This document shows, piece by piece, positions 2,014 through 16,609 of a stretch of 23,286 nucleotides of DNA. The notes below the pieces were generated by a model. It saw only the letters and a list, made by a program, of their open reading frames with translations, had not been told where the DNA came from and made no database searches. Position 1 is the first letter of the stretch, and each line of letters starts with the position of its first letter. A program made the position numbers and the translations under genes. The stretch comes from a virus, in the IMG/VR virus record IMGVR_UViG_3300025087_000302, positions 1 through 23,286 of that record; one strand, 5' to 3'.

Positions 2014-2271
2014 TTACTCCTTGCCCGCGCTCACACCGGCGAGCAGTGGTGTTTGGGTTGCGGCCATTTCCCCCCTGGCTTCTGCAATCTCGATCTTTAG
2101 TTCCGCCCAGGCCGTGTCCACGAGGCGCGACATATAGCGGTCAAGCGCAAGGCCGCTGAGATGCGTATCTTTTTCGGCCAGGTAATCGCGGACGGCCTGG
2201 CGCGCACCGGACACGCCGAGTCCGCTTTGTGCGGCGTAGTGAAAAACTTCGAGAGCGTGAGTGTCAAACAT
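2014..2271 (-). CDS. Small helical hypothetical protein (85 aa)
   Basis: I start this gene at the ATG at 2271 because a GGAGG lies 6 nt upstream. An ATG 36 nt further up is open but lacks such a signal. The 85 residues (MFDTHALEVFHYAAQSGLGV...) are mostly helix-forming and soluble, with a run of charged and aliphatic residues around WAELKIEIAEARGEM. The start overlaps the end of a 27-codon frame, and the stop lies 6 nt before the next gene, so it belongs to the same polycistronic message. Unknown function. Confidence 0.6.
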   Translation of the reverse strand: MFDTHALEVFHYAAQSGLGVSGARQAVRDYLAEKDTHLSGLALDRYMSRLVDTAWAELKIEIAEARGEMAATQTPLLAGVSAGKE

Positions 2272-2347
2272 TCGGGACCTCCACAAATAATTTATGGCAC
2301 TTCCCATATTCGCGCGGCAGGTCGGAGAGGCGGGAGAGGGTGGTCAT
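2264..2347 (-). CDS. Putative 27-residue peptide coupled to its neighbours
   Basis: A 28-codon frame starts at ATG 2347, which overlaps the TGA of the upstream gene in an ATGA arrangement. It ends at a TGA (2264-2266) that overlaps the first codons of the downstream gene by 8 nt. The peptide (MTTLSRLSDLPREYGKCHKL...) has mixed composition with a single cysteine. The exact ATGA coupling and the absence of any other gene in this gap support translation. At this length it could also be a coupling device rather than a functional protein. Confidence 0.35.
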   Translation of the reverse strand: MTTLSRLSDLPREYGKCHKLFVEVPNV

Positions 2348-2547
2348 TTTGCGTCCCACCCTTCGCAAAACTCACGCGCCAGGGTTGCGATTTTCTCGCC
2401 GCCGAAACAAGCAATCTCGTAGGTACTGCCCTCTGAGTTTATCGCGAATCCGATACCCGCATAGTGCAGGGTGAGCGCGTCGAGCAAGCGGTTGACAGAT
2501 TTTTTGTTGATTACGGACTTGTCGAAAATTATCACGATTTGTCTCAT
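2344..2547 (-). CDS. Small hypothetical protein (67 aa)
   Basis: The ATG at 2547 has a strong AAGGAG 6 nt upstream. The product begins with a beta-strand-like run (MRQIVIIFDKSVINKK), then a helix (SVNRLLDALTL) and further strand-like segments ending FCEGWDAK. This gives an alternating alpha/beta pattern like a small ferredoxin-like fold. No family is recognised. It follows the Csx16-like gene by about 80 nt, and its stop overlaps the next start (ATGA), so it is part of the same operon. Confidence 0.6.
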   Translation of the reverse strand: MRQIVIIFDKSVINKKSVNRLLDALTLHYAGIGFAINSEGSTYEIACFGGEKIATLAREFCEGWDAK

Positions 2548-2629
2548 TCTGACTCCTTTTTTTGATTGTCTAAGAGCGGTCTAACGGCAAGCATAAGCGG
2601 CAAAGGCGGGGCTTGAAACGCGCTTGCCT

Positions 2630-2800
2630 TCACGCTTCAAGCATGGAAATTTCCGTAACTGAACTGGCGAGAATGCCGATGACATCATTTCCTTTGATGT
2701 CATTAGGTGTGGCCTGGGCAATTACATTGCCAATGATACCATTGCGTCGCAACCATTCGACGGCGGCATTGTGACGAGTGACGATTACAATAGTAGCCAT
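2630..2800 (-). CDS. Csx16 (VVA1548)-like protein, short phage form (56 aa)
   Basis: Seen: the 56 residues begin MATIVIVTRHNAAVEWLRRN and continue with a strand/helix pattern ending in GNDVIGIL. The landmarks are V7-T8-R9-H10, A13, E15-W16, G21 and D39-V-I-G42. Family knowledge: Csx16 (the former VVA1548 family) has an N-terminal V-S/T-R-H-x-G-A-x-E-W signature followed by a G-D-x-V-I-G-x-L segment, is about 85-110 residues long, and is encoded with type III CRISPR systems. It has been linked to cyclic oligoadenylate turnover. Inference: a phage copy could blunt type III signalling. It is shorter than the family because the C-terminal third is missing, and I found no convincing continuation in another frame. 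Its ATG overlaps the upstream stop (TAATG), so translation is probably coupled. The assignment rests on remembered motifs and needs a profile search. Confidence 0.6.
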   Translation of the reverse strand: MATIVIVTRHNAAVEWLRRNGIIGNVIAQATPNDIKGNDVIGILASSVTEISMLEA

Positions 2801-3009
2801 TACATCGCCTCCAGTTTCTCGGCTAATTCAGGTGATATGTACACCTGAAAAACTTTGCCATCATACTCAATTTGGTGGGCTACGTGAGTATCGGCGTCAA
2901 AACCGGCCTGATAAGCAAGAGAGCGGATGCCTTGCTCGATTTCATCAGGATTAACAAGAACAGATGTATTACGACATGCTACGACGGGCTTCCAATTTTT
3001 AGGTATCAT
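2800..3009 (-). CDS. Small hypothetical protein (69 aa) coupled to the Csx16-like gene
   Basis: The ATG at 3009 is preferred because AAAGGAA sits 5-6 nt upstream, and the codons before it have no signal. The product (MIPKNWKPVVACRNTSVLVN...) is a compact alpha/beta-looking protein with one cysteine (C12) and a helical tail (SPELAEKLEAM). Its stop shares one base with the start of the Csx16-like gene, so the two are probably translated together and may act together. No family is recognised. Confidence 0.6.
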   Translation of the reverse strand: MIPKNWKPVVACRNTSVLVNPDEIEQGIRSLAYQAGFDADTHVAHQIEYDGKVFQVYISPELAEKLEAM

Positions 3010-3084
3010 TTCGATTTCCTTTTCTCTCCGATACAAAGCCTACGGAAGCGGGCTAACGTGGTGGTGGTCATCCTTGCCACCTGC

Positions 3085-3109
3085 CCGCCCTCTAACGAGT
3101 AGAGGGCGG
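3085..3109 (-). other. Stem-loop in the gap between two minus-operon genes
   Basis: A perfect 9-bp stem (3085-3093 with 3101-3109) closes a 7-nt loop between the stop at 3127 and the start at 3009. No U run follows on either strand, so it is unlikely to be a simple intrinsic terminator. It could be an RNA processing or stability element within the operon. Confidence 0.5.
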
Positions 3110-3126
3110 ATGCTGGCGGGGATTGA

Positions 3127-3501
3127 TTATTTCATCCAGGGAAACCAGGGGCTTTCCAAAGCCGCCTTGATTTCGTCATCGCTGAAGCCCGCCTCGCTGG
3201 CGGCGAATTCAAACTCATGGCTGAGTTCGTCGTTATTGGCGGCGCGGCCATTTTCAACGATGCTGGTTACGATATGGGTTGTTTCGCTTACGTTCATTTT
3301 TTGCTCCTGTTGATTTGTTTCCGGCCACAATATCGCGTACATTCTCGCGACATCCTCAGCCGTTGCCCGCGTCATGGTTGCGGGGTTGAAGTCTACGACC
3401 CGTTCCTCTGGGGCAAACTCACAAGTCGCGCATTTGGCAAGCGGGTAAATTAATGTGCAGGCTTGGCAGGTGGTGGAGGGGGCGGGGCGTAGGTCGGTCA
3501 T
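3127..3501 (-). CDS. Cys-rich N-terminal protein (124 aa), first gene of the minus operon
   Basis: The N-terminal 30 residues hold two CxxC pairs (C13-C16 and C24-C27 in CQACTLIYPLAKCATC), a likely zinc knuckle. The C-terminal part is acidic and helical and ends in WFPWMK. The ATG at 3501 lies exactly 6 nt after a TATAAT box, so it should be read from a leaderless transcript. An in-frame ATG at 3297 has a good AGGAG 6 nt upstream and would produce a separate 56-residue C-terminal protein, so two products are possible. As first gene of an early-type operon it could be a regulator, but no DNA-binding fold can be named. Confidence 0.6.
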   Translation of the reverse strand: MTDLRPAPSTTCQACTLIYPLAKCATCEFAPEERVVDFNPATMTRATAEDVARMYAILWPETNQQEQKMNVSETTHIVTSIVENGRAANNDELSHEFEFAASEAGFSDDEIKAALESPWFPWMK

Positions 3502-3605: not shown

Positions 3606-4931
3606 ATGAAAAAGACGAAATCCAAACGACCCGCGCCGAAAGTGGGCGACGTGGAAATCCGGCCGATAGACGAAGCGGCAACTCTGGATTTGCAAAATAC
3701 GAACAAGCATACCCAGCGCGGCGGAGGCCTGCTCGAAAACTCCCTGAGACGACGCGGGGCGAATCGTTCGGTTGCCAGCGCGGGGAAGGGCGTAGAGACC
3801 CCCGTCATCACGGCGGGAAATTATACCTATGAAAAAGCGGTCACGCTGGGATTTGAAAATGTGATGAATGTCTACACGGATGGAAAAACGCTTGTGAACG
3901 TGGTGCGAATGGACGTTGCGCCGGGAAGCGCGGAGGCGATTGCGCTTGGAATCGAAGATAACGAAATTGGCAAGCAATCATACGCGCCAGACGTTGACCT
4001 CATCGCACAACTTGCGGCTGGCGACTCGGCGGTGCTGGCGGCGTTATACAAGGAAGATTCTGTATTCAACTCGATGGTGGAGGGGATGGGGGTGCGGGAG
4101 GAAGCGCAGGACGCGGAACCGGAATTCGACCGGGCGGAGGAGTTGCGGAAAAAATGGGGCGTGGAATTTGGAGATGTTTGGGAACTTGAAAAGCATTTAT
4201 TGATTTGCGGGGACTGCACCGAAAAGGCAACTATTGAAAGAATAATGAATAAGGAAAAGGCGACCTTGCTTTTTACCGATCCGCCCTACGGTGTTTCGAT
4301 TGGTGCAAAGAACAGGATGCTAAATTCCTTCCAGAAGGCTGGAAAGAATTTAGCAAACCTAAAGGCAGACGACGATAATGCCGACGATTTGGGCGCAATG
4401 CTTTTATCCGCTTTTACTCTGGCGAAAGAATTCCTAGCGGACGATTGTTCGGTTTTTGTTTGCAGTCCGCAGGGCGGCCAACTTGGCATGATGATGATGA
4501 TGATGATGATGAATGCCGGATTAGAGATTCGACACGTTTTGAATTGGATAAAAAACTCTCCGACATTTTCGATGGGAAGATTAGATTACGACTATCAACA
4601 CGAACCGATTTTATTTACATGGACAAAGAAACATAAGCGCATTATGGCGGGTAAGTTCAAAACCAGCACTTGGGAAATAGATAAACCCCGCGCCAACAAA
4701 GAACATCCGACTATCAAGCCGGTTGGGTTGTACGAAAATGCAATGCTAAACCATACCGAGAAAAACGATATTTGTTTTGATAACTTTTGTGGAAGCGGGA
4801 CTATGTTGGTCGCCTGCCAGAATCTCAACCGACGCGGGCGGGTAGTGGAAATCTCTCCCACCTATTGTGCGGTCATTCTCGAACGCATGGCGACCGCCTT
4901 CCCCGACTTGGAAATAAAGAGGTTGAAATGA
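3606..4931 (+). CDS. ParB-like domain fused to DNA methyltransferase
   Basis: The 441-residue protein has an N-terminal ParB/Srx-like domain (about residues 13-150, with NTNKHTQRGG and LLENSLRRRGANRS). The C-terminal domain is an S-adenosylmethionine-dependent amino-methyltransferase: DPPY at 225-228 is the catalytic motif, and FCGSGT at 394-399 binds the cofactor. The order DPPY then FxGxG fits beta-class N6-adenine or N4-cytosine enzymes. It probably modifies phage DNA against host restriction; the target site cannot be predicted. Residues 295-302 are eight consecutive methionines encoded by an (ATG)8 repeat, which is unusual inside the catalytic domain. Such ParB-methyltransferase fusions are common next to phage terminase genes, and the next gene overlaps it by 4 nt. 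Confidence 0.9.
   Translation: MKKTKSKRPAPKVGDVEIRPIDEAATLDLQNTNKHTQRGGGLLENSLRRRGANRSVASAGKGVETPVITAGNYTYEKAVTLGFENVMNVYTDGKTLVNVVRMDVAPGSAEAIALGIEDNEIGKQSYAPDVDLIAQLAAGDSAVLAALYKEDSVFNSMVEGMGVREEAQDAEPEFDRAEELRKKWGVEFGDVWELEKHLLICGDCTEKATIERIMNKEKATLLFTDPPYGVSIGAKNRMLNSFQKAGKNLANLKADDDNADDLGAMLLSAFTLAKEFLADDCSVFVCSPQGGQLGMMMMMMMMNAGLEIRHVLNWIKNSPTFSMGRLDYDYQHEPILFTWTKKHKRIMAGKFKTSTWEIDKPRANKEHPTIKPVGLYENAMLNHTEKNDICFDNFCGSGTMLVACQNLNRRGRVVEISPTYCAVILERMATAFPDLEIKRLK
4488..4511 (+). repeat. (ATG)8 trinucleotide repeat inside the methyltransferase gene
   Basis: Eight perfect ATG codons in a row encode Met295-Met302 of the methyltransferase. Slippage here would add or remove methionines without changing frame. 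Confidence 0.95.
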
Positions 4932-5386
4932 CCAACCCCGCTATAAATAAAGCCGAAAACAGCGGCAAGAAAAAAGCGACTGGCCGCCCGTTCACGAAGG
5001 ACAACAAGGCGACGGGCGAGAAGGATTCCAGGATAAATCGCCGAGGCCGTCTCGTCTCGGATATGACCGCGCTCAAAAAGGAATATCAAAAAGTCTGGTC
5101 GGAGATAATGTTCGTGGAGGCGATGGACGAAAACGGCAGGCCGATCCTGGACAAGAAGACGGGCAAGCCGAAAATGGTTCCCGCGCTTGATGAAGTTACG
5201 GGGGAAAAATTAACCCGCTTAACGGCGCGCTTGCGCGTGTCCACGTCCTCACGCAATACGCAGGAATTCCAAACCGCGCTAGCGTATGCGTTCGGGAAAC
5301 CAAAGGAAGAGATTGAGGGAAATCTCAAGGGCGAAATCGTTCTTCGGATAGTCCGCGAGGAAACAAAAAAAACCGATGGCGACTGA
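4928..5386 (+). CDS. Putative small terminase subunit / DUF5681-like protein (152 aa)
   Basis: The ATG at 4928 overlaps the methyltransferase stop (ATGA), with GAGG just upstream. The N-terminal 50 residues are very basic and glycine-rich (GRPFTKDNKATGEK), like the leading segment of DUF5681 proteins often found before terminase genes. A helical domain follows with a hydrophilic insertion rich in K, G and D. The gene lies directly upstream of the large terminase and overlaps it by 11 nt, the usual place of the small subunit that recognises phage DNA. The assignment depends mostly on position and on the basic N-terminus. No helix-turn-helix is obvious. Confidence 0.55.
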   Translation: MTNPAINKAENSGKKKATGRPFTKDNKATGEKDSRINRRGRLVSDMTALKKEYQKVWSEIMFVEAMDENGRPILDKKTGKPKMVPALDEVTGEKLTRLTARLRVSTSSRNTQEFQTALAYAFGKPKEEIEGNLKGEIVLRIVREETKKTDGD

Positions 5387-6641
5387 ACTGACCGTTCACT
5401 TGCGAGTCCTGCATCCGAAGCAGGAGTTAATCAAAGCGTCAACTGCCAAGCGGATAATAGTCCGCGCTGGTCGGCGCGGCGGCAAAACTGTATTTGCCGC
5501 TGATTGGGCGGTGGACAATTTTCTTGACGGGAAGCGCGTCCTGTATGGTGTGCCGACTTCCGACCAGTTGCAGAAATTTTGGTTCGAGGTGACGCGTGCG
5601 CTTGCGGAGCCAATCGAAGCGGGGGTATTCAAGGTGGACAAAACCATGCACACCATTGAAAGGCCAGGGACAGAGAATCGCATCCGCGCCAAAACCTGTT
5701 GGAATGCGGATACCCTGAGGGGGGATTACGCCGACCGGCTTGCACTGGATGAGGTCCAACTTATGGCAGAGGATACGTGGGGAACGGTGGGCGCGCCTAT
5801 GTTGTTGGATAATAATGGCGACGCGCTTTTTATCTATACCCCGCCGTCACTCCATTCTCGCAGTACTAGCAAGGCCCGCGACAAAGGCTGGATGACAAAA
5901 TTCACCAAGCAACACGCCAACGATCCGAAAGGACGCTGGAAGATATTTTCGTTCACGTCGCATGACAACTCATACATTTCCGCCGAGGCGCTGGATGATA
6001 TTACCGAGGACATGAGCGCGACTGCGATCCGGCAAGAAATTTACGCGGAGGACATGGATGAAGCGCCGGGCGCGTTGTGGCATAGGCAGAAAACGCAAAT
6101 CGGGACTCAGTGGATTTTGGGACTGGATGATAACCGCGTTTTCAAAACGCCCGAATTGATTCGGGTTGTGGTGGGAGTAGACCCGTCCGGTTCGTCTACG
6201 GGTGACGCGTGCGGTATAATCGGGGCTGGCATGGATAACAACAAACACCATTACACGCTGGAAGACAATAGCATCCAGGGCAGCCCGGACATGTGGGCGC
6301 GTGAGGCGTGCAAGACGTACCACAAATTAAAAGCGGACGTGATGGTCGCTGAGAAAAATTACGGCGGCGAGATGGTCGAAAAGGTTATCCGTGACACCGA
6401 TCCGACAGTCAACGTGAAACTCGTAAGCGCGACGCGCGGGAAGGCCGTCCGCGCCGAACCAATTTCAGCACTGACCGAGCGCGGCACGGATCACATGGTA
6501 GGAAGTTTCCCATCGCTGGAAGACGAATTGTGCCTGTGGGTTCCGGGCGATGCCAGCCCGAACCGATTGGATGCTAAAGTCTGGGCGGATACGGAATTAG
6601 GGGCAGGACTCAGCCCGTTGCAACTCGTGGACTATGCGTGA
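5376..6641 (+). CDS. terL: Terminase large subunit (packaging ATPase and nuclease)
   Basis: This 421-residue protein pumps DNA into the prohead and cuts it. Residues 30-38 (RAGRRGGKT) form the P-loop, and LALDE at 122-126 is the Walker B strand with its catalytic glutamate. The C-terminal RNase H-like nuclease shows VGVDPSG (D269), VAEKN (E326) and DAKVWAD (D400/D405), the expected acidic metal ligands. The length is in the normal range. The gene sits between the small terminase candidate and the portal, as in many siphoviruses, and is translated by overlap with the gene before it. Confidence 0.93.
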   Translation: MATELTVHLRVLHPKQELIKASTAKRIIVRAGRRGGKTVFAADWAVDNFLDGKRVLYGVPTSDQLQKFWFEVTRALAEPIEAGVFKVDKTMHTIERPGTENRIRAKTCWNADTLRGDYADRLALDEVQLMAEDTWGTVGAPMLLDNNGDALFIYTPPSLHSRSTSKARDKGWMTKFTKQHANDPKGRWKIFSFTSHDNSYISAEALDDITEDMSATAIRQEIYAEDMDEAPGALWHRQKTQIGTQWILGLDDNRVFKTPELIRVVVGVDPSGSSTGDACGIIGAGMDNNKHHYTLEDNSIQGSPDMWAREACKTYHKLKADVMVAEKNYGGEMVEKVIRDTDPTVNVKLVSATRGKAVRAEPISALTERGTDHMVGSFPSLEDELCLWVPGDASPNRLDAKVWADTELGAGLSPLQLVDYA

Positions 6642-6649
6642 GGTAAACA

Positions 6650-8251
6650 ATGGCAATTTTTGGTATACCAACTCGAAAGGACATCGCCGCGCTGAAAGAC
6701 GAACTCGACGCGCTGAAAGCGGAGCGATATAAATATCAGCCCTGGCAACTGGAAACAGCCGAGGCGGAAAAGTGGAATCAGCCAGACCCAAGCGTTTATA
6801 AAAACCAGGCAGACCTATATCGTACCCTGTCCTGGGTGATGACGGCGGTTGACATCACTGCGTCCACCACCGCGCTTGTCCCATTTTCCGTAATGTCGGC
6901 AGTCGGGGAACAAGAGCCGAGGGAAATTGTCAATCATCCATTCGAGATGCTATTGCGTCACCCAAACGAACTTGATTCGCGTTTTGAATTCCTGTACGCC
7001 ACCGTCGCGTTGTGGAAATTGACAGGCAACGCGTATTGGTGGCTTAATCGCGCAAATGAAAACGCCGCGCCGACTGAGATGTGGGTCATCCCGTCGCACA
7101 TGATTGAGCCTATCCCGGATGGGCGGATGTACCTGGACGGGTATGCCTACTCGCCAGGAAACGGAAATACTATCGCGCTGGAAAATTGGGAGATTGTAGA
7201 CTTCCGCCGCTTCAATCCGTTCTCGCGTTTTCGCGGCCTATCCGCCATTGAATCGTTGGCGTTGGTCGCACAGGGCGACATTGGGATGCAGGAATACAAC
7301 ACAAAACTATTCAAGGATAAGGGTGGGCAACTGTCCGGTATTCTCGCGTTCAAATCCATAATCGAAACAGATCAATGGAAAAAAATAAAACAGGACAAGC
7401 GCGACGCGGCCAGCAAGCGCGAGGACATGATGCTAAACGGCGTGGGCGATGGTGGGGTAGAATGGCTACAAAACGCGTTCACGCAAAAAGATATGGAATT
7501 TTTGGAAGGCCGCAAATTTAACCGCACCGAGATTTACGGCGCGCTTGCGCCTGGCCTGGAATCCATGACCGACCCGTCTGCAACTGAGGCCAACGCTAAT
7601 GCGGGCGAGCGCGTGTTCATGGGGAAAAACATTTACCCGATGCAGGTGATGATGGCGGAGAAAATCAGCAATTCTATTCTGCCCGCCTATGGTGAAAATC
7701 TGATTGCAGAATTCGAGGACGTGCGTATCTCTGACCGCCAATTGGAATTACAAGAACGCGCGGCAGACGAAAAGATTATGACGCTTAGGGAACTTCGCAA
7801 AACCTACAATCAACTTGAACCTCTTGGAGACGAACGCGACGATCTGCTTCCCGTCCAAATCACCGCGCAGACTGGGCAACCCGAATCACCCGCGCCGGTT
7901 ATTGTGCAATCTAATCAGCCCGACGTGGACCAGACCCAGCCTGATACGATCCAGGGACAAGAGCCGCCCATAGACGCGGACAATCCCGACGCGGATAACA
8001 ACGCGCTGAAGGCCGACCTGGACAAGTGGAAACGCATCGCGCTCAAAAAGGTTGGCAAGGCTGTTCCATTTGAATCGTTTGAAATACCGGACGGGATGCG
8101 GTTGGAGATTACCCGCGCCTTGTCTGCCTGCAAGTCCGAAGCGGATGTGCGCGGTGTGTTCGCCAAACACGCGGCGGCGAAACCGAAGGCCAGTGATGTG
8201 CTGGAATTGGCGCGCGCGATGAACCGCGCGGTGGAAGAATTGGCGAAATGA
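6650..8251 (+). CDS. Portal protein (HK97-like)
   Basis: The 533-residue protein forms the ring through which DNA enters and leaves the capsid and to which the terminase docks. It opens with a short coiled coil (KDIAALKDELDALKAE) and has the usual portal core: YRTLSWVMTAVD, FEMLLRHPN and GNAYWW segments near the N-terminus, a central RFRGLSAIESL segment, and the YGALAPGLESMTDPSATEAN region further on. The C-terminal 120 residues hold a P/D/Q-rich linker and a charged helical end, longer than in a minimal portal. GAGGT precedes the ATG. The TGA overlaps the next start. Confidence 0.9.
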   Translation: MAIFGIPTRKDIAALKDELDALKAERYKYQPWQLETAEAEKWNQPDPSVYKNQADLYRTLSWVMTAVDITASTTALVPFSVMSAVGEQEPREIVNHPFEMLLRHPNELDSRFEFLYATVALWKLTGNAYWWLNRANENAAPTEMWVIPSHMIEPIPDGRMYLDGYAYSPGNGNTIALENWEIVDFRRFNPFSRFRGLSAIESLALVAQGDIGMQEYNTKLFKDKGGQLSGILAFKSIIETDQWKKIKQDKRDAASKREDMMLNGVGDGGVEWLQNAFTQKDMEFLEGRKFNRTEIYGALAPGLESMTDPSATEANANAGERVFMGKNIYPMQVMMAEKISNSILPAYGENLIAEFEDVRISDRQLELQERAADEKIMTLRELRKTYNQLEPLGDERDDLLPVQITAQTGQPESPAPVIVQSNQPDVDQTQPDTIQGQEPPIDADNPDADNNALKADLDKWKRIALKKVGKAVPFESFEIPDGMRLEITRALSACKSEADVRGVFAKHAAAKPKASDVLELARAMNRAVEELAK

Positions 8252-8991
8252 AACGAGACACCCTCCTCCGCTTCATCCGCCGCGCCGCGCAGGCGGTCCC
8301 ATCTGTTGTGGAGCATCTGAGCGCGGATGCAAAAAACATGCTGGCGCTAAAGGTTGGCGAGACGGGCGACTATAACGAATATCTGCAAAGCATAGAAGTT
8401 CTTGTCCAGAAACTTTATGATTACGGATTAAGCGAATCGGAGTTCAAGGAACAATTCAAGGCTTTGATAGTCGCGCAACTTATGGCGGCATACAATAGCG
8501 CATGGTTTGACACAATGGACACGGACGAGATACCGGATTATCTGGACGAGGGCCTGCGGGAGGAGATAAAAAAACAATATGGGTATGTCAATAGGTATTA
8601 CGAAGACATAGTAAAAGCGCGCGGCCTGGCAATGGGAATTGCTTTGCTTTTGTCGCGTGCCAGTCTGTGGGCGGGCGCGGTTGTGGGGGCATACAGTAAC
8701 GCGATCCTGCAAATCGCAACCGTGGAAGGTCCAAAACCAGATACGCCAATATTGGAAAATCTTGTTTGGCGTTTGGGCGCAACTGAACAGCACTGTAAAG
8801 AATGCTATTCGCTGAATGGGATAGTGGCGTCCGCGGGTGATTGGGGGAGAAGCGGATTCCGTCCGCAAATGCCGCCTAACGAAATGTTATCCTGTGGCGG
8901 CTGGCGTTGCGATTGCTCGCTTCTGCCATCTCTGGAAATAGCAGATGCCGACGCGGCAGAGCGATTGAATCAAATAGCGGCAGGTATCTAA
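8248..8991 (+). CDS. Minor head protein (SPP1 gp7 / Mu F-like)
   Basis: A helical N-terminal two-thirds is followed by the cysteine-rich signature of the Mu F/SPP1 gp7 group: HCKEC (C183, C186) and CGGWRCDC (C216, C221, C223), with a tryptophan and glycines between. These proteins bind the portal and are packaged in small numbers in the head, where they help assembly or DNA delivery. The order portal then minor head protein and the 4-nt overlap with the portal gene support the call. The 247-residue length is typical. Confidence 0.8.
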   Translation: MKRDTLLRFIRRAAQAVPSVVEHLSADAKNMLALKVGETGDYNEYLQSIEVLVQKLYDYGLSESEFKEQFKALIVAQLMAAYNSAWFDTMDTDEIPDYLDEGLREEIKKQYGYVNRYYEDIVKARGLAMGIALLLSRASLWAGAVVGAYSNAILQIATVEGPKPDTPILENLVWRLGATEQHCKECYSLNGIVASAGDWGRSGFRPQMPPNEMLSCGGWRCDCSLLPSLEIADADAAERLNQIAAGI

Positions 8992-9524
8992 TGCAGATTA
9001 GATTTAAAATTGAAGGCCTCGAAAACATCAGATCGTTTTTTCTGGATGTTTCAAGAACTGTCCCGCACGTTGTCATTAATGCCATTGCGGAACATTTGAA
9101 AAACGCGCTACAGCAAGACCGGGCGCAGTATAAATACATTAGCCGCGCATCTGCTTATGGTTCAACGGGCGCAACGTTTGAAAATGGGAATCCCGTCCCA
9201 GATGGATATTTCAGCGCAAAGCAATTCCGTTATGTCATGGCGAAAATTACAGACGGCACTATGACTCCCGGAACAGAAAACAGGACAGGGAAAAGCGCGG
9301 CAGGATGGGGGTATAATCCAATTGCAGAGGGGGAGAATACAGGATACATTACCAACCAAACCCCCGGCGCGTATTACACCACGAGCGACATTGGTCAAGC
9401 GCGCCAACCCGCAAAAGTCGGGTGGTTAAAAAACTCCATCGTCATTGCAAAAAACATTGTCGGCGCATTGTCGGCGGCAAAAGACGCGGTTGACAAATTC
9501 ATAATTTCATCGAAAGGAAAATAG
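8991..9524 (+). CDS. Head/neck-associated protein of unknown function (177 aa)
   Basis: The chosen ATG shares one base with the upstream TAA (TAATG). The product begins MQIRFKIEGLENIRSFFLDV, a strand-helix opening reminiscent of HK97 gp10-type tail-completion proteins, then a long Gly/Asn/Thr-rich middle and a helical C-terminus (ALSAAKDAVDKFIISSKGK). Position after the minor head protein would suit a neck or tail-completion role, but the genes for those functions usually lie after the capsid gene. Its exact function is therefore left open. It is the last gene before the non-coding island. Confidence 0.6.
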   Translation: MQIRFKIEGLENIRSFFLDVSRTVPHVVINAIAEHLKNALQQDRAQYKYISRASAYGSTGATFENGNPVPDGYFSAKQFRYVMAKITDGTMTPGTENRTGKSAAGWGYNPIAEGENTGYITNQTPGAYYTTSDIGQARQPAKVGWLKNSIVIAKNIVGALSAAKDAVDKFIISSKGK

Positions 9525-9535
9525 CCTCTTGTTTT

Positions 9536-9546
9536 TGTGGTATACT
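9536..9546 (+). promoter_or_regulatory. Extended -10 promoter inside the structural gene cluster
   Basis: TGTGG-TATACT lies 12 nt after the stop of the upstream gene, with no recognisable -35. The expected transcription start is near 9553. It matches the TGTGN-TAWAMT pattern of the other two proposed promoters. Confidence 0.5.
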
Positions 9547-9552
9547 ATTTTT

Positions 9553-9700
9553 GGTAGGAGATTGGCCAAACTAAAAAGTTTGGCCTTTCCGCAAGGAATA
9601 ATCGAGATAACCCTATTCAAACGCTGAGAGGCTCTTTGCGAGACCGGAAATGGTAAACAAAGGCGACGCGTACAGGAAACTGTATGTGTCGCCTTTTTGT
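9553..9700 (+). ncRNA. Candidate structured small RNA or attenuator leader upstream of the protease/capsid genes
   Basis: No protein gene fits here. The predicted RNA of about 148 nt can form a perfect 9-bp hairpin with an AAAA loop (9564-9585). A helix UUUCCG/CGGAAA (9586-9591 with 9645-9650) can enclose two smaller stems (9596-9600/9614-9618 and 9631-9634/9640-9644 with a bulge). A strong terminator stem closes the 3' end. An alternative UUCC-GCAA-GGAA hairpin (9587-9598) competes with the enclosing helix. I could not match it to a known riboswitch or ribozyme. It could act as a free small RNA or as a conditional terminator for the capsid genes. Confidence 0.5.
9661..9700 (+). terminator. 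Intrinsic terminator before the prohead protease gene
   Basis: A 15-bp stem (9661-9675 with 9680-9694, two G-U pairs) closes a GAAA tetraloop and runs into TTTTTGTTTT. This is a textbook rho-independent terminator, yet it lies in the middle of the morphogenesis operon, 15 nt before the protease start. Late transcription must read through it or restart. Confidence 0.85.
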
Positions 9701-9714
9701 TTTGGAGCATGCAG

Positions 9715-10569
9715 ATGAAATTACCGCCCAAAATCAGAGAAGCAATCAAGGCCGTCACCGACGCGCCGAATTTGCGCGGGGACGAACAGCAAACCTGTCG
9801 CAACTGCAATTATTTTAAGTACATGCCTACCGATGGAAGTGATTTTGAGGGCGTCTGCAATCTTCACGAATTCACCGCGAAAGAAGTCTGGGTGTGCGAT
9901 GATTGGGAATTAATCCCGCCCTCCGAACCCGCACAAGTGGAAAGCGCAGTCAAAGCCATCGGGGATTGGGAACTTGAAATTCGCGCCGTGCCATTTGGTG
10001 TAGACCGCGAAAAACAATCGTTTGACGCTGAAACTAATTATATGCTTGAGGAGTTTCAGACGCCCGTCGTTACATACCACCACGGAATCAATCCGGGCAG
10101 AAAAGGTATGCAGGTCAACCCAGTCATCATCGGAAAAACAATCAGCGTAGAAAAGCGGGCAGACGGGATTTGGATTCGTGTCCTACTTGACAAGACTTTG
10201 GATTTTGCCCGCCGCGTATGGGAAGCGGCGAAAAAAGGACTGGCCGTTGCATCCTCCGATTCAATTGCACATTTGGCGCGGCTTGAGGTGAACGGACGGG
10301 AAGAGTTTTACGATGGCGAAAAGCCAGGCAGAATTTCTGTCTGGCCGCTGGCGGGTGTGAGTTTGTGGGATTCGGGCAATGGAAATTTTCGTCCCGCCTC
10401 CCCGAACGCCATCGCCCTGCCTGCCATGAAAGCGATTTATCGGGAAGCGGGACTCCCCTTCCCGGACTTCAATCCCCATGACGCTTTACCAGAGGCCGCG
10501 CGAGCGGCGGGGAAGCGCACAAGGGAACAGGCACTTGCTTATTTAATCACCATTCCTAACGAGGAGTAA
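9715..10569 (+). CDS. Prohead protease with an N-terminal zinc-finger-like domain
   Basis: I start at ATG 9715 because GGAG lies 7 nt upstream; the ATGs at 9697 and 9709 are too close to it or precede it. Residues 28-61 hold C28, C31, C48, H51 and C61 in a zinc-finger-like arrangement that minimal HK97 proteases lack. The rest matches the protease fold: strands from DWELEIRAVPFGVD, a candidate catalytic His at 122/123 in VVTYHHG, and a candidate Ser within ASSDS (180-183). It would cleave the capsid delta domain and scaffold during maturation. The 284 residues include a Pro/Ala-rich helical tail. The gene lies 7 nt before the major capsid gene. Confidence 0.8.
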   Translation: MKLPPKIREAIKAVTDAPNLRGDEQQTCRNCNYFKYMPTDGSDFEGVCNLHEFTAKEVWVCDDWELIPPSEPAQVESAVKAIGDWELEIRAVPFGVDREKQSFDAETNYMLEEFQTPVVTYHHGINPGRKGMQVNPVIIGKTISVEKRADGIWIRVLLDKTLDFARRVWEAAKKGLAVASSDSIAHLARLEVNGREEFYDGEKPGRISVWPLAGVSLWDSGNGNFRPASPNAIALPAMKAIYREAGLPFPDFNPHDALPEAARAAGKRTREQALAYLITIPNEE

Positions 10570-10576
10570 AACAACC

Positions 10577-12193
10577 ATGAAAGATCAACTCAAGAAACTC
10601 CGCGCGCAAATCAAAGTGTTGGCCATCAAAGCCGACCTGACCGACGCGGAGGACGCCGAACTGAAAAAGATGATGGCGCAAGCCGTCAAACTCGAAGGCC
10701 AGATCGAAGCCGCCGCGCTCGCCGCGAAGGGCGACGAAGCGGAACAGGCCGAAGCCGAAGCCGCGAAGAAACTGGAATTCGACGCCGCGCTCAAGGCTGA
10801 AAAGGTCAAGTGGGAAGCCGAGGCCGCGAAAGGACGCCGCCTGCCGATGGGCGACGGCGCGCCACATCAAACGCGATTTGCGGATACCCTGAAATACGAT
10901 TATCTGTCTCCCGGCGATCTTGGCCTGGCGATTCACCTCGCCAACGGACTCTCCCGCGCCAACACCGCAGGGATTGACGTGCGGCTTGGCCAGGGCGCGC
11001 TGAAAGCCCTCGCCATCAAATTGATCGAGGACACACGCGATTTTGGACATGCCGCCCTCGGACGAGGCTATTCGCTCAAGGCGATGTCCGAAGCGGGTCT
11101 GTCGCTAGACAAGGACGCGTATAAGGACGACGCGGCGATGAAGGCCGTTACCGATCCGATGTACACCGGCGGCACGACCGAAGGCGGAAACTGGGTGCAT
11201 ACCTCCTACAGCCGCGAGTTGTGGGCGGCATTGCGCGCCCCTACCGCCGTGCTTGGAAAACTTCCGGTGCAGATCATCCCGGACGGTTCTAAGTCCGCGA
11301 CTATCCCATTGGAAGGCACTGATTTGACTTGGTACTCCGCCCCCGAAGCGACTGCGAGCGACACGACTTTGCTTGTCCCGTCCGCGACGGTTGGCGGGAC
11401 GCAGATCACCACGCCCACCAACAAAGAAATTACCGTCGGCAAAATGGGTGCGCGCGGCCTGTACAGCGGCGAGTTGACCGAAGATTCCATTATCAACTTC
11501 GTCCCGCAACTCCGCGAACAATTGATCACCGGCGGCAACGAGCAGTTGGAACACGCTGTAATCGATGGCGACACCGAAACGGCCGCGACCACCAATATCA
11601 ACCACATCGGCGGCACGCCCACTTCGACGGGCATCAGCCGCGATCTTTTCCTGATTTTCGATGGATTCCGCAAATTGGCGCTCGTCACCAATACCGACAA
11701 CTCCGTTGCAGGCGGCGCGCTGACCGAGGACGATTACCTGGATACCATGTGGCTAATGGGTACGGCTGGACTGGCCGGTGCAGACCTCTCCAAGTGTGGT
11801 TTCATCATTGACCCGAACATCTACAAAAAGTCGCTGAAATTAGCGACTTTGAAAACCAAAGACGTTTGGACCCAAGCCACGATGGAAAGTGGCGTTCTCA
11901 CGAAACTGTGGGGCTACGACATTTTCGCCTCGTGGTTCATGCACTACAAATCGACCGTCCGCAAGGCAAACAGCGCGGGCAAAGTGGATCAAACCACCGT
12001 CGCGAACAACACCTACGGCTCGATTCTCGGCGTCCGTTGGGATCAGTGGCGGTTCGCGTACAAGCGCCAGATGACCATCGAGACGACCCGTATCGCCAAC
12101 GCCGACTCCTACGAGATCGTTGCCTGGGCACGCGTCGGACTCGGCTACCGTGACACGGAAGCCTCTGCCATTTCCTATGGCATCACCGTCTAA
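10577..12193 (+). CDS. Major capsid protein, HK97 fold with N-terminal delta (scaffold) domain
   Basis: The first 90 or so residues are a highly charged coiled coil (MKDQLKKLRAQIKVL onward, rich in K, E and A), the delta domain that acts as an internal scaffold and is removed by the protease. The remaining 440 residues form the capsid core, with recognisable segments such as RELWAALRAPTAVL, the SATVGGTQ turn and a C-terminal region ending DSYEIVAWARVGLGYRDTEA. AGGAG precedes the ATG. The codon use is more GC-rich and uniform than in the neighbours, as expected for a highly expressed gene. A hairpin follows the stop. Confidence 0.9.
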   Translation: MKDQLKKLRAQIKVLAIKADLTDAEDAELKKMMAQAVKLEGQIEAAALAAKGDEAEQAEAEAAKKLEFDAALKAEKVKWEAEAAKGRRLPMGDGAPHQTRFADTLKYDYLSPGDLGLAIHLANGLSRANTAGIDVRLGQGALKALAIKLIEDTRDFGHAALGRGYSLKAMSEAGLSLDKDAYKDDAAMKAVTDPMYTGGTTEGGNWVHTSYSRELWAALRAPTAVLGKLPVQIIPDGSKSATIPLEGTDLTWYSAPEATASDTTLLVPSATVGGTQITTPTNKEITVGKMGARGLYSGELTEDSIINFVPQLREQLITGGNEQLEHAVIDGDTETAATTNINHIGGTPTSTGISRDLFLIFDGFRKLALVTNTDNSVAGGALTEDDYLDTMWLMGTAGLAGADLSKCGFIIDPNIYKKSLKLATLKTKDVWTQATMESGVLTKLWGYDIFASWFMHYKSTVRKANSAGKVDQTTVANNTYGSILGVRWDQWRFAYKRQMTIETTRIANADSYEIVAWARVGLGYRDTEASAISYGITV

Positions 12194-12210
12194 CCTATAT
12201 TTCGCGTGAT

Positions 12211-12235
12211 GGCGGGAGGGGCGTTCCCTCCCGCC
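12211..12235 (+). other. Perfect GC-rich hairpin after the capsid gene
   Basis: GGCGGGAGGG (12211-12220) pairs completely with CCCTCCCGCC (12226-12235) around a 5-nt loop. It starts 18 nt after the capsid stop. No U run follows, so it is more likely an RNA stabiliser or processing barrier than a strong terminator. Confidence 0.7.
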
Positions 12236-12259
12236 GGACGTGATAGGAGAAAAAATCAA

Positions 12260-13222
12260 ATGGCTACTTATATTTTGCGAAAGGGTGTTGCGTCCCTGAA
12301 CGATTTGTCCAATGGCGTATTGGCTGGCTTGCTACTCAGCGGCGCGCAGGGTGATGTTTTCTACTGCGACCCCACCAACGGCAATAACGCCAATGATGGT
12401 CTGTCCCCGGATACTGCCAAAGCGAATCTCAAAAACGCTTACGATTTGACCACCGATAACCACAACGATGTGGTTTGTTTTATCGGCGGTGCGACTGCCG
12501 ACAACCCGGCGGCGGCCATCACCTGGTCGAAATCCTATACCCATCTGATTGGCATCTCATCCCCCGTATTCGGCCTGGGTCAGCGATGCCGCGTGGTCAC
12601 GCTGGCGGCTACAGCCGTCACCCCGGTCATCACCTTCTCTGGTAGCGGTTGCATCGTCGCGAATATGCAGTTCTACAACGAGAAGGCGGCAGGTTCGGCG
12701 GCAGGTTGCGTCATCGTCACCGGTCTGCGGAATTACTTCGAGAATGTGTTCTTCATGTCGCCGGTTGCGACCGACGCCGCGTCGTATTCACTCAAACTTG
12801 GTTCATCTGAAAATGTGTTCGTCCGTTGTACCATTGGACAGTTTACGAACCCGCGCACAGCCGCGAGTTATGGATTGTGGGTACATGGTGCCGGAGTAGT
12901 TTCTCGCAACAAATTTGTCGAATGCGAGTTTCTGTCCTGGGGCTACGACGCCACCCATTGCCACGTGCTCTTCGATGCCGACATGGCCGCCGTCCCACAC
13001 GTGACCTGGTTCGAGGATTGTCTATTTCAGCAAAACGCCACACAGTTGACGCAAGCCATTGACGATAACTCTACTGCCGCCGGTCATCAGATCGTTTTCC
13101 GTGGCCGCAACAATTTGGTTGTCAATGCCGCCGCTGTTGGCGATGTGCTGACCTATATGTTTGCCCCGAACCCCGACGCGAGCATCAGCGGTCTGCTGGC
13201 CGTCACAGTCGCCGAATCTTAA
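12260..13222 (+). CDS. Beta-helix protein at the capsid decoration position (320 aa)
   Basis: The ATG at 12260 has TAGGAG upstream. After an N-terminal helix-rich leader, the protein has the repetitive strand pattern of a right-handed parallel beta-helix. It starts from VFYCDPTNGNNANDGLS, typical of pectate-lyase-like domains, followed by rungs such as CIVANMQFYN, NYFENVFFM, ENVFVRCTIG and RNKFVECEFL. Phage beta-helix proteins are usually tailspikes or fibers, but this gene follows the major capsid gene directly. It could therefore be a head decoration or head fiber protein that binds or processes surface sugars. No catalytic residues are assigned. Confidence 0.65.
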   Translation: MATYILRKGVASLNDLSNGVLAGLLLSGAQGDVFYCDPTNGNNANDGLSPDTAKANLKNAYDLTTDNHNDVVCFIGGATADNPAAAITWSKSYTHLIGISSPVFGLGQRCRVVTLAATAVTPVITFSGSGCIVANMQFYNEKAAGSAAGCVIVTGLRNYFENVFFMSPVATDAASYSLKLGSSENVFVRCTIGQFTNPRTAASYGLWVHGAGVVSRNKFVECEFLSWGYDATHCHVLFDADMAAVPHVTWFEDCLFQQNATQLTQAIDDNSTAAGHQIVFRGRNNLVVNAAAVGDVLTYMFAPNPDASISGLLAVTVAES

Positions 13223-13233
13223 GGAGCGCGAAA

Positions 13234-13386
13234 ATGCTAATCAAACTTCTGCAAGATTCAGATGGCTTTGACAAAGGCGACGTTGTGGAAATTTCCAAAC
13301 CGCGCGCCGAGCAACTAATCGCGGAGGGCAAGGCGGAACTGTACGTCGCGCCCGAACCCGCCAAGTCCACCAAAAAATTCAAGTAG
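13234..13386 (+). CDS. Small phage structural-cluster protein (50 aa), DUF7210-like
   Basis: AAGGAG precedes the ATG, and the frame gives 50 residues starting MLIKLLQDSDGFDKGDVVEI, then AEQLIAEGKAELY and a Lys-rich end. This is the pattern of tiny phage proteins (strand, GDVVE turn, helix ending in a glycine) found next to capsid genes. The protein encoded at 14877-15119 shows the same layout, so the two are probably distant paralogues. Function unknown. Confidence 0.65.
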   Translation: MLIKLLQDSDGFDKGDVVEISKPRAEQLIAEGKAELYVAPEPAKSTKKFK

Positions 13387-13389
13387 TTT

Positions 13390-13413
13390 GAGGAGGGGCG
13401 CGAGCCCCTCCTC
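13390..13413 (+). other. GC-rich hairpin with GCGA tetraloop
   Basis: A 10-bp perfect stem (13390-13399 with 13404-13413) closes a GCGA (GNRA) loop, 3 nt after a stop codon and upstream of the next ribosome binding site. No U run follows. It resembles the hairpin after the capsid gene and may protect or separate mRNA segments. Confidence 0.7.
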
Positions 13414-13427
13414 TCTCGGAGTAATCC

Positions 13428-13805
13428 ATGAAGGAAATTTTCCTGAAACTCTCCACCGGCGCGGCAGACGGCGCGGCTTTAATACTTGCTCCATCTGCCG
13501 TGCTTGGAAAACTGTACGCAATTGAATATCAGCCCGGCGATATTGCTACCGGCGCGACACTGACGCTCACCTGCCTCGGCGCGAACGGCGCGGAAAAGCC
13601 CCTGCTCACGAAGGCCAGCGCAGGCACGGCGAATAGTTGGTACTACCCCCGCGACCTGGTTCACGCGGTGGCAGATGGCGCGGCACTGACTGGCACATCT
13701 GGCGGCGATAGGGCAATGCCAGTTTTGCAGGGTGTGGTTAAGGCGGTCATCGCATCCGGCGGAAATTCCAAAGTCGGTTACGTGGCGTTGTACTACGAGG
13801 ACTGA
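13428..13805 (+). CDS. Small structural protein of unknown function (125 aa)
   Basis: A CGGAG box precedes the ATG by 7 nt. The protein begins MKEIFLKLSTGAADGAALIL and is rich in Gly, Ala and Thr with alternating hydrophobic strands, consistent with a compact beta protein. No cysteine-rich or catalytic motif is seen apart from a single Cys. Its place between the capsid gene and the connector gene, and its composition, fit a minor head or decoration protein, but no family is recognised. Its TGA overlaps the next ATG (TGATG). Confidence 0.6.
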   Translation: MKEIFLKLSTGAADGAALILAPSAVLGKLYAIEYQPGDIATGATLTLTCLGANGAEKPLLTKASAGTANSWYYPRDLVHAVADGAALTGTSGGDRAMPVLQGVVKAVIASGGNSKVGYVALYYED

Positions 13806-14428
13806 TGACGATCACAAACGGCTATAGTTCACTCGCGGAATTCAAAGCCTGGGTCACGGTGCGTGGCGGTACTGCTTCAACCGACGCGGCGGACGACGCG
13901 GTGATGGAAAGTATCATCGAAGCCTGCTCACGCAAGATTGATGAATTGACTGGGCGCAAATTTTGGAAAAACAGCGTTGCTGAAACGCGTTATTTCCAGG
14001 CGCGCGAGGCGTTTTACCTGGATTTGGAAGATCTGGTGAGCATCGCCACCTTGTCTGTGGATTACGCCAACACCCGCACGTACACGGATTTGGTGGCCGC
14101 TGATTTTGAACTCAGCCCGCCCAACGCCGCGTTGGACGGCAAGCCGTACACCGAGATTTTTATCTCCCCGACCAGCGCGGCATACTTCCCTGTTTTCGAT
14201 GCGGGCGGAAGCCGAAGCGTAAAAATCTCAGGCGTTTTCGGCTGGCCGTCTGTGCCGACCAATATCAAAACCGACTGCATGACCATCGTTCACAACCTTT
14301 GGATGGCGCGTTCCGGCCAGGTTGGAAGCGGCAAGGTGAGCGTCACGGCGGGCGGGATCGTCATTCGCCCCGAGGACATTCCCGATCACGTTATGCAGGA
14401 CATCCTAACTCTTAGGATACTGCGATGA
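13805..14428 (+). CDS. Head-tail connector / adaptor protein (gp6/gp15-like)
   Basis: The first 70 residues are helical (SLAEFKAWV, VMESIIEACSRKIDELTGRKFW), the usual opening of the adaptor family that forms a ring under the portal. A beta-rich middle follows (FYLDLEDLVSIATLSVDY), with VSGVFGW-like strands and a C-terminal helix ending HVMQDILTLRILR. The helix-strand-helix layout, 207-residue length and position after the capsid gene support the adaptor role. Confidence 0.7.
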   Translation: MTITNGYSSLAEFKAWVTVRGGTASTDAADDAVMESIIEACSRKIDELTGRKFWKNSVAETRYFQAREAFYLDLEDLVSIATLSVDYANTRTYTDLVAADFELSPPNAALDGKPYTEIFISPTSAAYFPVFDAGGSRSVKISGVFGWPSVPTNIKTDCMTIVHNLWMARSGQVGSGKVSVTAGGIVIRPEDIPDHVMQDILTLRILR

Positions 14429-14880
14429 CCGTCAACGTTAATTTTGTCGCCGTCGCAAACGCGATTGGAAACCTGACCGTCTCTGGCGTGACGCTTAGGG
14501 ACATTGACCAGATTACCGCGTCGGTTTTGGTCGCTCCTGCCACGCTCGCCCCGAAGCCGGGCGGATGGATTACGAATATGCGCGTTACTACAGATTCTGT
14601 CGGCACAGGCGGCGCGCAAAAGATGACGTTGTACTACACGCTGAATTACACCTATTACCACTGCCAGATTGGGAGCGTGCTGGATTTCGGATCGTATTCG
14701 GCGATGATAACGAACATTGCCGCCATCCTGGTTGTGCTTTTGTCCAACGATGTGATAACGGGCGCGCTTGACCAGACGCCAAAAGTTTCCGACATTGGGC
14801 CCGTTTTGGATCCGGCAGGAAATTCCTATCATGGTTGCGTTTTTTCGCTGGACATCGAGCAATTTGTAGAGGTCGCATGA
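14425..14880 (+). CDS. Probable neck or tail-completion protein (151 aa)
   Basis: The gene overlaps the connector stop (ATGA). The product is mostly beta-strand (MTVNVNFVAVANAIGNLTVS, MRVTTDSVGTGGAQKMTLYY) with a hydrophobic helix in the middle (AAILVVLLS) and an acidic C-terminus ending IEQFVEVA. Head-closure, tail-completion and tail-terminator proteins occupy this slot between adaptor and tail tube. I cannot decide which it is from sequence alone. Confidence 0.5.
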   Translation: MTVNVNFVAVANAIGNLTVSGVTLRDIDQITASVLVAPATLAPKPGGWITNMRVTTDSVGTGGAQKMTLYYTLNYTYYHCQIGSVLDFGSYSAMITNIAAILVVLLSNDVITGALDQTPKVSDIGPVLDPAGNSYHGCVFSLDIEQFVEVA

Positions 14881-15119
14881 AAATCAAATTTCTGTGTGAT
14901 TACATCGGGCGGGAAACCGCTATGAAACAGTATCACGAAGGCGACGTGGCCGAATTCGACCACCAGGCCGCGATTGAAATTATTCGGTTAGGCGGCGGTA
15001 AGGAAGTCCCCAATCCGAGGGTAGAGGCCATGCTACAGGAATTCACGGACGCGATGGACGATCTTCTCCCGCCCGCGCCGAAAAAGAAAAAGGTGAAATA
15101 TGAGCCGAACGAATCATAG
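14877..15119 (+). CDS. Small protein (80 aa), paralogue-like to the 50-aa gene at 13234
   Basis: The ATG overlaps the upstream TGA (ATGA). The product begins MKIKFLCDYIGRETAMKQYH, followed by EGDVAEFD, a helix (AAIEIIRLGGGKE) and a C-terminal helix ending in a PKKKKVKY basic tail. The strand, GDV turn and helix-glycine order match the 50-residue protein at 13234. The last 20 bases are shared with the next gene in another frame. Role unknown. Confidence 0.65.
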   Translation: MKIKFLCDYIGRETAMKQYHEGDVAEFDHQAAIEIIRLGGGKEVPNPRVEAMLQEFTDAMDDLLPPAPKKKKVKYEPNES

Positions 15120-15879
15120 GTTTATCCGAGCGTATGTCAGCGGCTACGACCTCAGCGGAACGGCACGCGATATTGGCTCTGTCGGATATGCCTTCGACAA
15201 CGAACCGAACGCGGCTTTCTCGGATGGAGTGAAAAATATCGTCAACGGCCAGATGACAGTACAGGCCGACCCGCTAAACGCGTTCCTGTCTCCTGAAACG
15301 TCTCCGGCCATCGGCCTGCATGAATTGCTAAAATCCGGCGCTGGACTGCAAACCTACACCATCGCGTACGGGATTCTAGCCGCTCCCGCGCAAGGTGATT
15401 TTATCTTTTCGATGCCAATGGAGCAGGCCGCGTATCAGGCCGAGGGCGTGGCGGTGAACGTAGGCTGGGGGGGTCCAACGTCAACCAATACCCTGATCAG
15501 TCTGGGCTACTCGTGTCCGTTCGGGCGACTGCTCCACCCCTTCGGCGTAGAGACCGCCGTCAATGCCGCTGTTGGCATAGACGATTACGGCGCAAGCCCT
15601 CCCGAACTCGGAGGGATACTGACCTACCACCTGTATTCGAGCATTGGTGGAAACATTACCATCAAAGTTCAGGAAGCGGACACCAACACAAATGGAAGTT
15701 TTACAGATATCACGGGCGCAACTAGTGGACTTATTGACGCTTCTTCTTCCCCCAAACATGGCGTCGTTGCGATTAGTGCGACCTATGCAGTGAAGCGATA
15801 TTTACGCTGGCAGGTTGTTTTCAATGTGGGAACAAGCGCAACATTTTTGGCAGGATTCAATCGGAGGCTTTGGTCGTAA
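15100..15879 (+). CDS. Tail tube-like structural protein (259 aa)
   Basis: The N-terminal half reads like a phage tail tube subunit (RAYVSGYDLSGTARDIGSVG, then a SDGVKNIVNGQMTVQ segment). The C-terminal half looks like an added beta-sandwich (strands NITIKVQEADT and KRYLRWQVVFNVGTSATFLA). It is placed just before the likely tube protein at 16632, from which it is now separated by an antisense HNH gene whose 3' end overlaps its last 23 bases. It could be a second tube protein or a tail protein carrying a surface domain. Confidence 0.6.
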   Translation: MSRTNHRFIRAYVSGYDLSGTARDIGSVGYAFDNEPNAAFSDGVKNIVNGQMTVQADPLNAFLSPETSPAIGLHELLKSGAGLQTYTIAYGILAAPAQGDFIFSMPMEQAAYQAEGVAVNVGWGGPTSTNTLISLGYSCPFGRLLHPFGVETAVNAAVGIDDYGASPPELGGILTYHLYSSIGGNITIKVQEADTNTNGSFTDITGATSGLIDASSSPKHGVVAISATYAVKRYLRWQVVFNVGTSATFLAGFNRRLWS

Positions 15880-16489
15880 AGTATTCTATCCAATACTCAC
15901 GATTACCATTGGTTTTTACATGACAACTTTGACACAAAGTAATGCAATTTTCGGGAAAGGTATCGTTCTTTATGTAGTTAATGTGATGAACTGCCTTACC
16001 AAATTCGCCACAAATAGCGCAAGTGTAATTGTCTCGTTTGCGAATCTTTTCTTTGAATTGCTTGTTGAAGACAATTGGGTAAGGTTCGAAAGAAAGTCCG
16101 CCTCTCCAATTAGCGGCATTTTTGCCAATGGCACTTTTTATATAACAAGAACGAGAACAGTATTTTTGAGATTCTTTTCCACCGTGAGGCGGAGTAAATT
16201 CTTTTCCACAAAAGCGGCACAATCGCAAGGTTTTAATCTTTCTCGATATAGAATGGCATTTTATAGAACAATAACGTTGTGTAAGGAATCGGAAAAGTTT
16301 TACGGAATACGTTTTACCACATATCTCACACGTCTTGTTTTTTTCTCCTCCATTCCAGTTGCTAGATTTTTCTTTGACGAGATTTTCAGACCTCCACTTT
16401 CCAGCGCAGGCAAAAGAACAGCACTTTATGTCTGGTCTCGTAAATTTCGCAGAAAACACCTTACCGCAAATGGCGCAAGTTTTTTTCAT
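15857..16489 (-). CDS. HNH homing-type endonuclease with three N-terminal zinc ribbons
   Basis: The 210-residue protein has three zinc-ribbon-like units, C5/C8...C24/C28, C54/C57...C74/C78 and C91/C94...C111/C115, each of the CxxCGK...YCSxxC type. A NWRGG linker (127-131) follows, then a C-terminal HNH nuclease: C157xxC160, H168-H169, N181 and C186xxC189-H190. H169 is the likely general base; the four cysteines hold structural zinc. Free-standing phage HNH enzymes like this cut related genomes lacking the insert and so spread themselves. The gene is antisense to the operon and AT-rich (20 G+C of 60 at 16261-16320, against 32 of 60 at 16801-16860), suggesting recent arrival. AAGGAT lies 6 nt before the ATG. 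Confidence 0.9.
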   Translation of the reverse strand: MKKTCAICGKVFSAKFTRPDIKCCSFACAGKWRSENLVKEKSSNWNGGEKNKTCEICGKTYSVKLFRFLTQRYCSIKCHSISRKIKTLRLCRFCGKEFTPPHGGKESQKYCSRSCYIKSAIGKNAANWRGGLSFEPYPIVFNKQFKEKIRKRDNYTCAICGEFGKAVHHINYIKNDTFPENCITLCQSCHVKTNGNREYWIEYFTTKASD

Positions 16490-16603
16490 GGTTATCCTTA
16501 ACGGGAGCCTCCCGTTCTATAAGTCAGTATTGTTGTTCAGGCAATATAGACAGAACAGGAGGCACGATAAAAGTAAAAATCTGACTATTGCAATTGCCTG
16601 AAC
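16490..16603 (-). ncRNA. Structured 5' leader of the HNH gene with interleaved helices
   Basis: On the minus strand three segments are each followed by their complements in the same order. These are the A pair (16593-16605 with 16533-16545, 13 bp), the B pair (16581-16586 with 16522-16527, 6 bp) and the C pair (16552-16563 with 16507-16518, 12 bp with one G-U). The order A B C A' B' C' cannot form simple nested hairpins, so pseudoknots or alternative states are implied. The C pair needs a G-U that exists only in minus-strand RNA; the plus strand would have a C-A mismatch. A local hairpin (16500-16516) competes with the C pair right next to the ribosome binding site. This suggests translational control of the nuclease. 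Confidence 0.5.
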
Positions 16604-16609
16604 AATTAG

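Follow-up and report, generated by a model that had tools for sequence, protein, structure and literature searches.

Is a 56-residue protein of a tailed virus that resembles Csx16 an inhibitor of type III CRISPR signalling, or is it what is left of a longer ring nuclease? The protein is encoded in IMG/VR record IMGVR_UViG_3300025087_000302, from a metagenome, of which 23,286 nt were analysed (the window). An earlier note on this DNA proposed a Csx16-like candidate inhibitor, which could be a minimal enzyme, a sponge or a remnant. The link that it drew to cyclic oligoadenylate removal is sound, as Csx16 has been demonstrated to be a ring nuclease specific for cA4, which it cleaves in vitro (PMC12409355). 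The ORF lies among small minus-strand ORFs clustered at 2014-3501, and the features around it are the following.

2344..2547, minus strand: downstream small ORF of the same cluster, 67 aa, with a weak PADLOC match (PDC-S02, E = 0.025)
2630..2800, minus strand: truncated Csx16-like ORF, 56 aa, ATG start
2800..3009, minus strand: overlapping upstream ORF, 69 aa, unassigned
3606..4931, plus strand, divergent from the minus-strand ORFs: DNA methyltransferase with a ParB-like N-terminus (PF01555 3.6e-23; phrog_498 4.9e-71; phrog_8071 8.9e-8)
5376..6641, plus strand: terminase large subunit (phrog_2 1.3e-24; 55% identity to Methanosarcina virus MetMV)

The terminase large subunit marks the record as that of a tailed virus, and the genes after the methyltransferase on the plus strand are those of terminase, portal, head-tail and tail proteins. 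On the host the signals are mixed: the terminase resembles that of MetMV, whereas the best cultured matches of the portal are actinophages at about 25% identity. Over 4997-23279 the window is 100% identical to an overlapping contig (L011/L062), with which the known DNA of the virus reaches 28.6 kb. Within the methyltransferase gene, eight consecutive ATG codons (4488-4512) encode eight Met in a row; this may be a microsatellite of variable length. In a related virus, DNA at L010:4004-7626 matches the methyltransferase gene in two stretches separated by about 3 kb, between which there may be an insertion (a mobile gene, an intron or an intein). An 816-aa ORF at the position expected for the tape-measure gene contains 2.6 copies of an in-frame tandem repeat of 105 nt (19507-19784; 93% match). 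At 15857-16489, on the minus strand and opposite to the surrounding structural genes, lies a 210-aa ORF that has Cys-rich repeats and whose C-terminus is HNH-like; it resembles a homing endonuclease that has been inserted.

The 56-aa product, MATIVIVTRHNAAVEWLRRNGIIGNVIAQATPNDIKGNDVIGILASSVTEISMLEA, ends at a TGA stop at 2630-2632. It matches PF09652 with 29.3 bits (E = 9.8e-7; curated cut-off 25), over profile positions 2-44 of 91 only, and three PADLOC Csx16 models (9.2e-7, 2.6e-6 and 4.6e-5). A plasmid protein annotated as Csx16 is 36% identical to it (E = 1e-4), full-length viral copies are 53-55% identical, and a profile made from full-length relatives scores about 51 bits over residues 4-45. 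The homology to Csx16 is beyond chance. The family call of the earlier note is thereby borne out, and the three motifs on which it relied are present at V7-T-R-H10, A13-V-E-W16 and D39-V-I-G-I-L44. Of the two profiles that it named, PF09652 recognises the product; TIGR02620 gives only 16.9 bits, below its cut-off of 46.35, because the alignment covers just positions 2-43 of 93. We class the window copy as a truncated relative and do not count it among the full members of Csx16. No sequence match to AcrIII-1 (Crn2) was obtained in Pfam, NCBIfam or PADLOC.

Comparison with 31 full-length relatives divides the gene into a conserved part, a deletion and a short tail.

2669..2800, minus strand: conserved part, residues 1-44, beta1 (VTRH)-alpha1-beta2-beta3 (DVIGIL)
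2667..2670, minus strand: point after Leu44 at which 7 residues (21 nt) are deleted in frame and where alignments place the P-x-H-L-A-x-x of the relatives
2633..2668, minus strand: tail ASSVTEISMLEA, a beta4-like segment that matches the family's beta4 columns, followed by the stop

Twelve columns are conserved in at least 85% of these relatives. Five of them are kept in the 56-aa ORF: R9 (29/31 relatives), H10 (31/31), V40 (30/31), G42 (31/31) and L44 (30/31), so that the N-terminal (T/S)-R-H and V-x-G-x-L motifs of Csx16 are both present. One further column has changed from His (28/31) to Gln, as in a few relatives. The remaining six are absent, namely P (31/31), L (28/31), R (28/31), G (31/31), L (30/31) and Y (28/31). 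The Pro belongs to the P-x-(H/N)-L loop, which follows beta-3 in the family and is missing here. The tail matches the beta-4 columns at an offset of 7 from the position of this Pro (shuffle p = 0.0047), and only 0.16% of the 12-mers from the six-frame translation score as well on these columns. The exact fit indicates that 7 residues, or 21 nt, were lost in frame. Since the chain stops just after beta-4, the R-G-x-(E/D)-L motif and the last strand are also absent. Of the three conserved motif regions, only one survives in the window copy. The statement that the C-terminal third is lacking is right as to the truncation, but it leaves out the internal motif, which has been deleted as well.

The missing half is not encoded elsewhere in the DNA searched. 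Downstream of the gene, no C-terminal half was found in other frames (best frame -1.7 bits, matched by 65% of shuffles). A frameshifted remnant was considered, as LKREGKRVSSPAFAAYACR in the +1 frame resembles ELRGKELS by eye; the C-terminal profile scores nothing there. A split gene was also rejected, as a search for its second half in the window and the adjoining part of L011 (28.6 kb) gave nothing better than E = 0.59. Because the lost motifs, the Pro loop and RG-x-(E/D)-L, are absent from both the 56-aa ORF and the rest of the virus DNA searched, the proposal that this copy inhibits type III signalling is unsupported. Among viral contigs, the exact DNA of the gene has no second copy. The searches brought up no near relative of the truncated form from which selection could be gauged; 14 viral contigs collected through the terminase gave no Csx16 match, several of them being short fragments that end before the region. 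In the tree, the end branch of the window copy is 0.63 long, as against a median of 0.47. Given the good conservation of the N-terminal half, either the other parts were lost recently or selection still acts on this half.

For a full-length viral relative (L027), AlphaFold2 predicts a strand-helix-strand crossover with a helix between beta-3 and beta-4 (pLDDT 96.4). The best matches of this model among solved structures have the viral AcrIII-1 fold (2J6B, Z 4.9; 6SCF, Z 4.0), and it also matches the Csx1-Crn2 fusion 8Y7G (Z 4.2); these Z scores are modest. A published DALI comparison likewise pairs Csx16 with 2J6B (Z 4.8; PMC12409355). Foldseek returned nothing significant for the full-length model, its best hit (E 0.25) being a Cad1 chain bound to cA4. 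The 56-mer is predicted with lower confidence (pLDDT 76.8), with beta-3 running directly into beta-4 and no crossover helix, so that two strands follow each other directly; over its last two blocks pLDDT is 65 and 53. The best matches of this model are unrelated alpha/beta domains (Maf, aminoacyl-tRNA synthetase), and it did not retrieve the AcrIII-1 fold. In the structure prediction, a step suggested in the earlier note, the full-length relative comes nearest to AcrIII-1, at a modest level. The 56-mer is predicted to be rearranged and to lack the complete Rossmann-like (CARF-like) fold of Csx16, to which the beta3-helix-beta4 crossover belongs.

The 56-aa gene has kept its signals for translation. 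As had been noticed earlier, its ATG overlaps the stop of the upstream 69-aa ORF (TAATG), and GGAGG stands a few bases before it. The upstream product has 69 aa from the ATG at 3009 and 78 aa from a TTG at 3036. It has no family match in Pfam, NCBIfam, PHROG or PADLOC, no relatives among the viral contigs, and none beside other viral Csx16 genes.

Are there full-length copies in other viruses? A three-sequence alignment query found relatives in 14 viral contigs and a second query added one more (L040), giving 15. Representative locations in the viral and plasmid branch are listed below.

L040:4998-5276: full-length Csx16, 92 aa
L027:5001-5273: full-length Csx16
L024-L037: Csx16, nearly all full length
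L016:6001-6264: full-length Csx16
L020:2992-3276: full-length Csx16

All 16 records holding L024-L039 match PF09652 above the cut-off, and in 14 of the 16 the match spans positions 2-89 or 2-90 of 91. The shorter matches are those of L026 (2-85) and of L029 (2-63), the latter ended by the contig end. The window copy is the only internally truncated one among these records. Its closest relatives, on the viral contigs L040 and L027 and on a MAG contig (L039), are full length with all motifs present and 52-57% identical over the shared part. The 15 contigs are IMG/VR records, five of which carry a recognisable large terminase of one family, and the neighbours of the L040 gene encode a small terminase, an HNH endonuclease, an endolysin-like peptidase and a methyltransferase. 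Of the cultured and deposited phages in the collection searched, only the methanogen viruses Drs3 (AXN53384) and PhiF3 (QGZ14607) were found to carry Csx16. These are probably the two phage genomes with Csx16 already reported by Hoikkala et al. 2025 (PMC12409355). Longer proteins also occur in the viral and plasmid branch, of 671 aa on Allomeiothermus plasmid pMESIL02 and of 274 aa in an ORF of L027.

Outside viruses, relatives of full length were seen at a few loci in Deinococcota. In 84,980 cellular genomes the three-sequence query found two loci only. One is in Meiothermus luteus (L038/L057) and has a tandem double domain; the other is the MAG contig, which carries a replicative-helicase-like and a TnpB-like ORF (ORFs read by eye). 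Among 398 genomes of the phylum of this MAG, 11 besides the MAG itself have a clear Csx16 scoring 116-140 bits, whereas the top matches of the viral and Deinococcota type score 41-97 bits. In the tree, CRISPR-type cellular copies (94/98) stand apart from viral and plasmid copies (95/90), a split that needs an unbiased survey because the two sets were gathered by different routes. The window copy groups with the viral and plasmid branch and not with Drs3, whose Csx16 forms a long branch beside the cellular group. None of the 15 viral records with full-length copies contains Cas10, and no Cas10 was detected among the scanned neighbouring ORFs of the window (Pfam, NCBIfam, PHROG, PADLOC). As a control, Cas10 is on the same contig, at most about 11 kb from Csx16, in 5 of 11 CRISPR-type cellular genomes. 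The description of the family as otherwise found beside type III CRISPR genes is therefore incomplete, its closest members here being on Cas10-less viral contigs and plasmids.

Compared with CRISPR-linked Csx16 (PF09652/TIGR02620/Cas_VVA1548), the window copy is homologous over residues 1-44 and has T-R-H and V-x-G-x-L in common. It differs in lacking the P-x-(H/N)-L loop, RG-x-(E/D)-L and the last strand, in having no adjoining cas genes, and in being 56 aa long instead of about 92-105 aa. Drs3 and PhiF3 are likewise tailed viruses with an annotated Csx16; their copies are full length (103-104 aa) while that of the window is truncated, and Drs3 is nearer to the CRISPR-linked branch. AcrIII-1/Crn2 (2J6B, 6SCF) is a viral cA4 ring nuclease and the probable working model for the full-length ancestor, although it is of another sequence family than the Csx16 copies and the structural match is modest.

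We consider it fairly probable (about 0.6) that decay has left the 56-aa ORF as the remnant of a viral Csx16-type cA4 ring nuclease. It would descend from a full-length protein of about 92 aa, a member of the Csx16 branch that viruses and plasmids carry. Those members of the branch that are full length probably act like AcrIII-1, binding and cutting the cA4 made by Cas10 during infection, so that cA4-dependent effectors would not be activated. In the window virus, the 21-nt in-frame loss would have removed the Pro loop and the crossover helix, and all that follows beta-4 would have been lost too. The product is probably still translated and no longer cleaves cA4. Since neither an active site nor catalytic residues of Csx16 are described in the literature cited, its probable inactivity is judged from conservation only. 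We infer the ring-nuclease activity of the viral branch, its loss here, and decay rather than a new function. The kept N-terminal half, the in-frame deletion and the coupled start with a good Shine-Dalgarno sequence are points against a remnant.

One alternative is a non-catalytic binder. Such a fragment would di- or oligomerise and hold cA4 as a sponge, or pair with host Csx16 or CARF proteins and poison them. The TRH loop and the beta1-beta3 core are kept and the translation signals are intact; on the other hand, only one of the three conserved motif regions is left and the predicted 56-mer has an altered topology with a low-confidence tail. It is also argued that sponging is ill suited to type III, which makes much cA4 (PMC13148439). 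We regard a binder as unlikely, though not negligible. A minimal active ring nuclease, in which a beta1-alpha1-beta2-beta3-beta4 dimer suffices to cut cA4, is very improbable. It would retain the invariant His10 and Arg9, and no metal site is needed, as the published Csx16 assay was run in EDTA (PMC12409355), but the Pro and Arg-Gly motifs that it lacks are kept in nearly all of the highly diverged viral and cellular relatives. Hence, among the possibilities first offered, a remnant fits best, and binder and minimal enzyme are unsupported. It is rather improbable that the distinct viral and plasmid branch is a widespread cA4-cleaving anti-type-III protein and that, in addition, the minimal form in the window still binds or cleaves cA4.

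The overlap of start and stop with the 69-aa ORF and the conserved N-terminal half would also suit an unrelated new role in the small-gene operon, for example in partnership with the 69-aa product. This is improbable, as relatives of that product are not seen next to other viral Csx16 genes and no conserved pairing was observed. There is only a very slim chance that an assembly or sequencing error conceals an intact gene. A single metagenomic contig spans the region and its exact DNA is in no second contig, but a 21-nt in-frame loss together with the absence of C-terminal similarity in all frames is more than one indel error can produce. The identity with L011/L062 also speaks for a consistent assembly over the overlap, outside which the gene region lies.

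Two findings are new: the truncated variant itself, and relatives, nearly all of full length, in 15 viral contigs from metagenomes, where two phage genomes had been reported earlier (PMC12409355). Viral Csx16 itself is not new, having been reported by Hoikkala et al. 2025. As the cited literature describes no active site, the natural truncation is informative in singling out residues of interest in Csx16, those of the Pro loop and RG-x-(E/D)-L. The window copy is probably a fossil, and the wider interest lies in the group of full-length viral copies. Since Csx16 is a demonstrated cA4 ring nuclease, these copies are plausibly anti-CRISPRs by analogy with AcrIII-1. If they cleave cA4, Csx16 would stand beside AcrIII-1 among the antidotes that viruses have against type III CRISPR.
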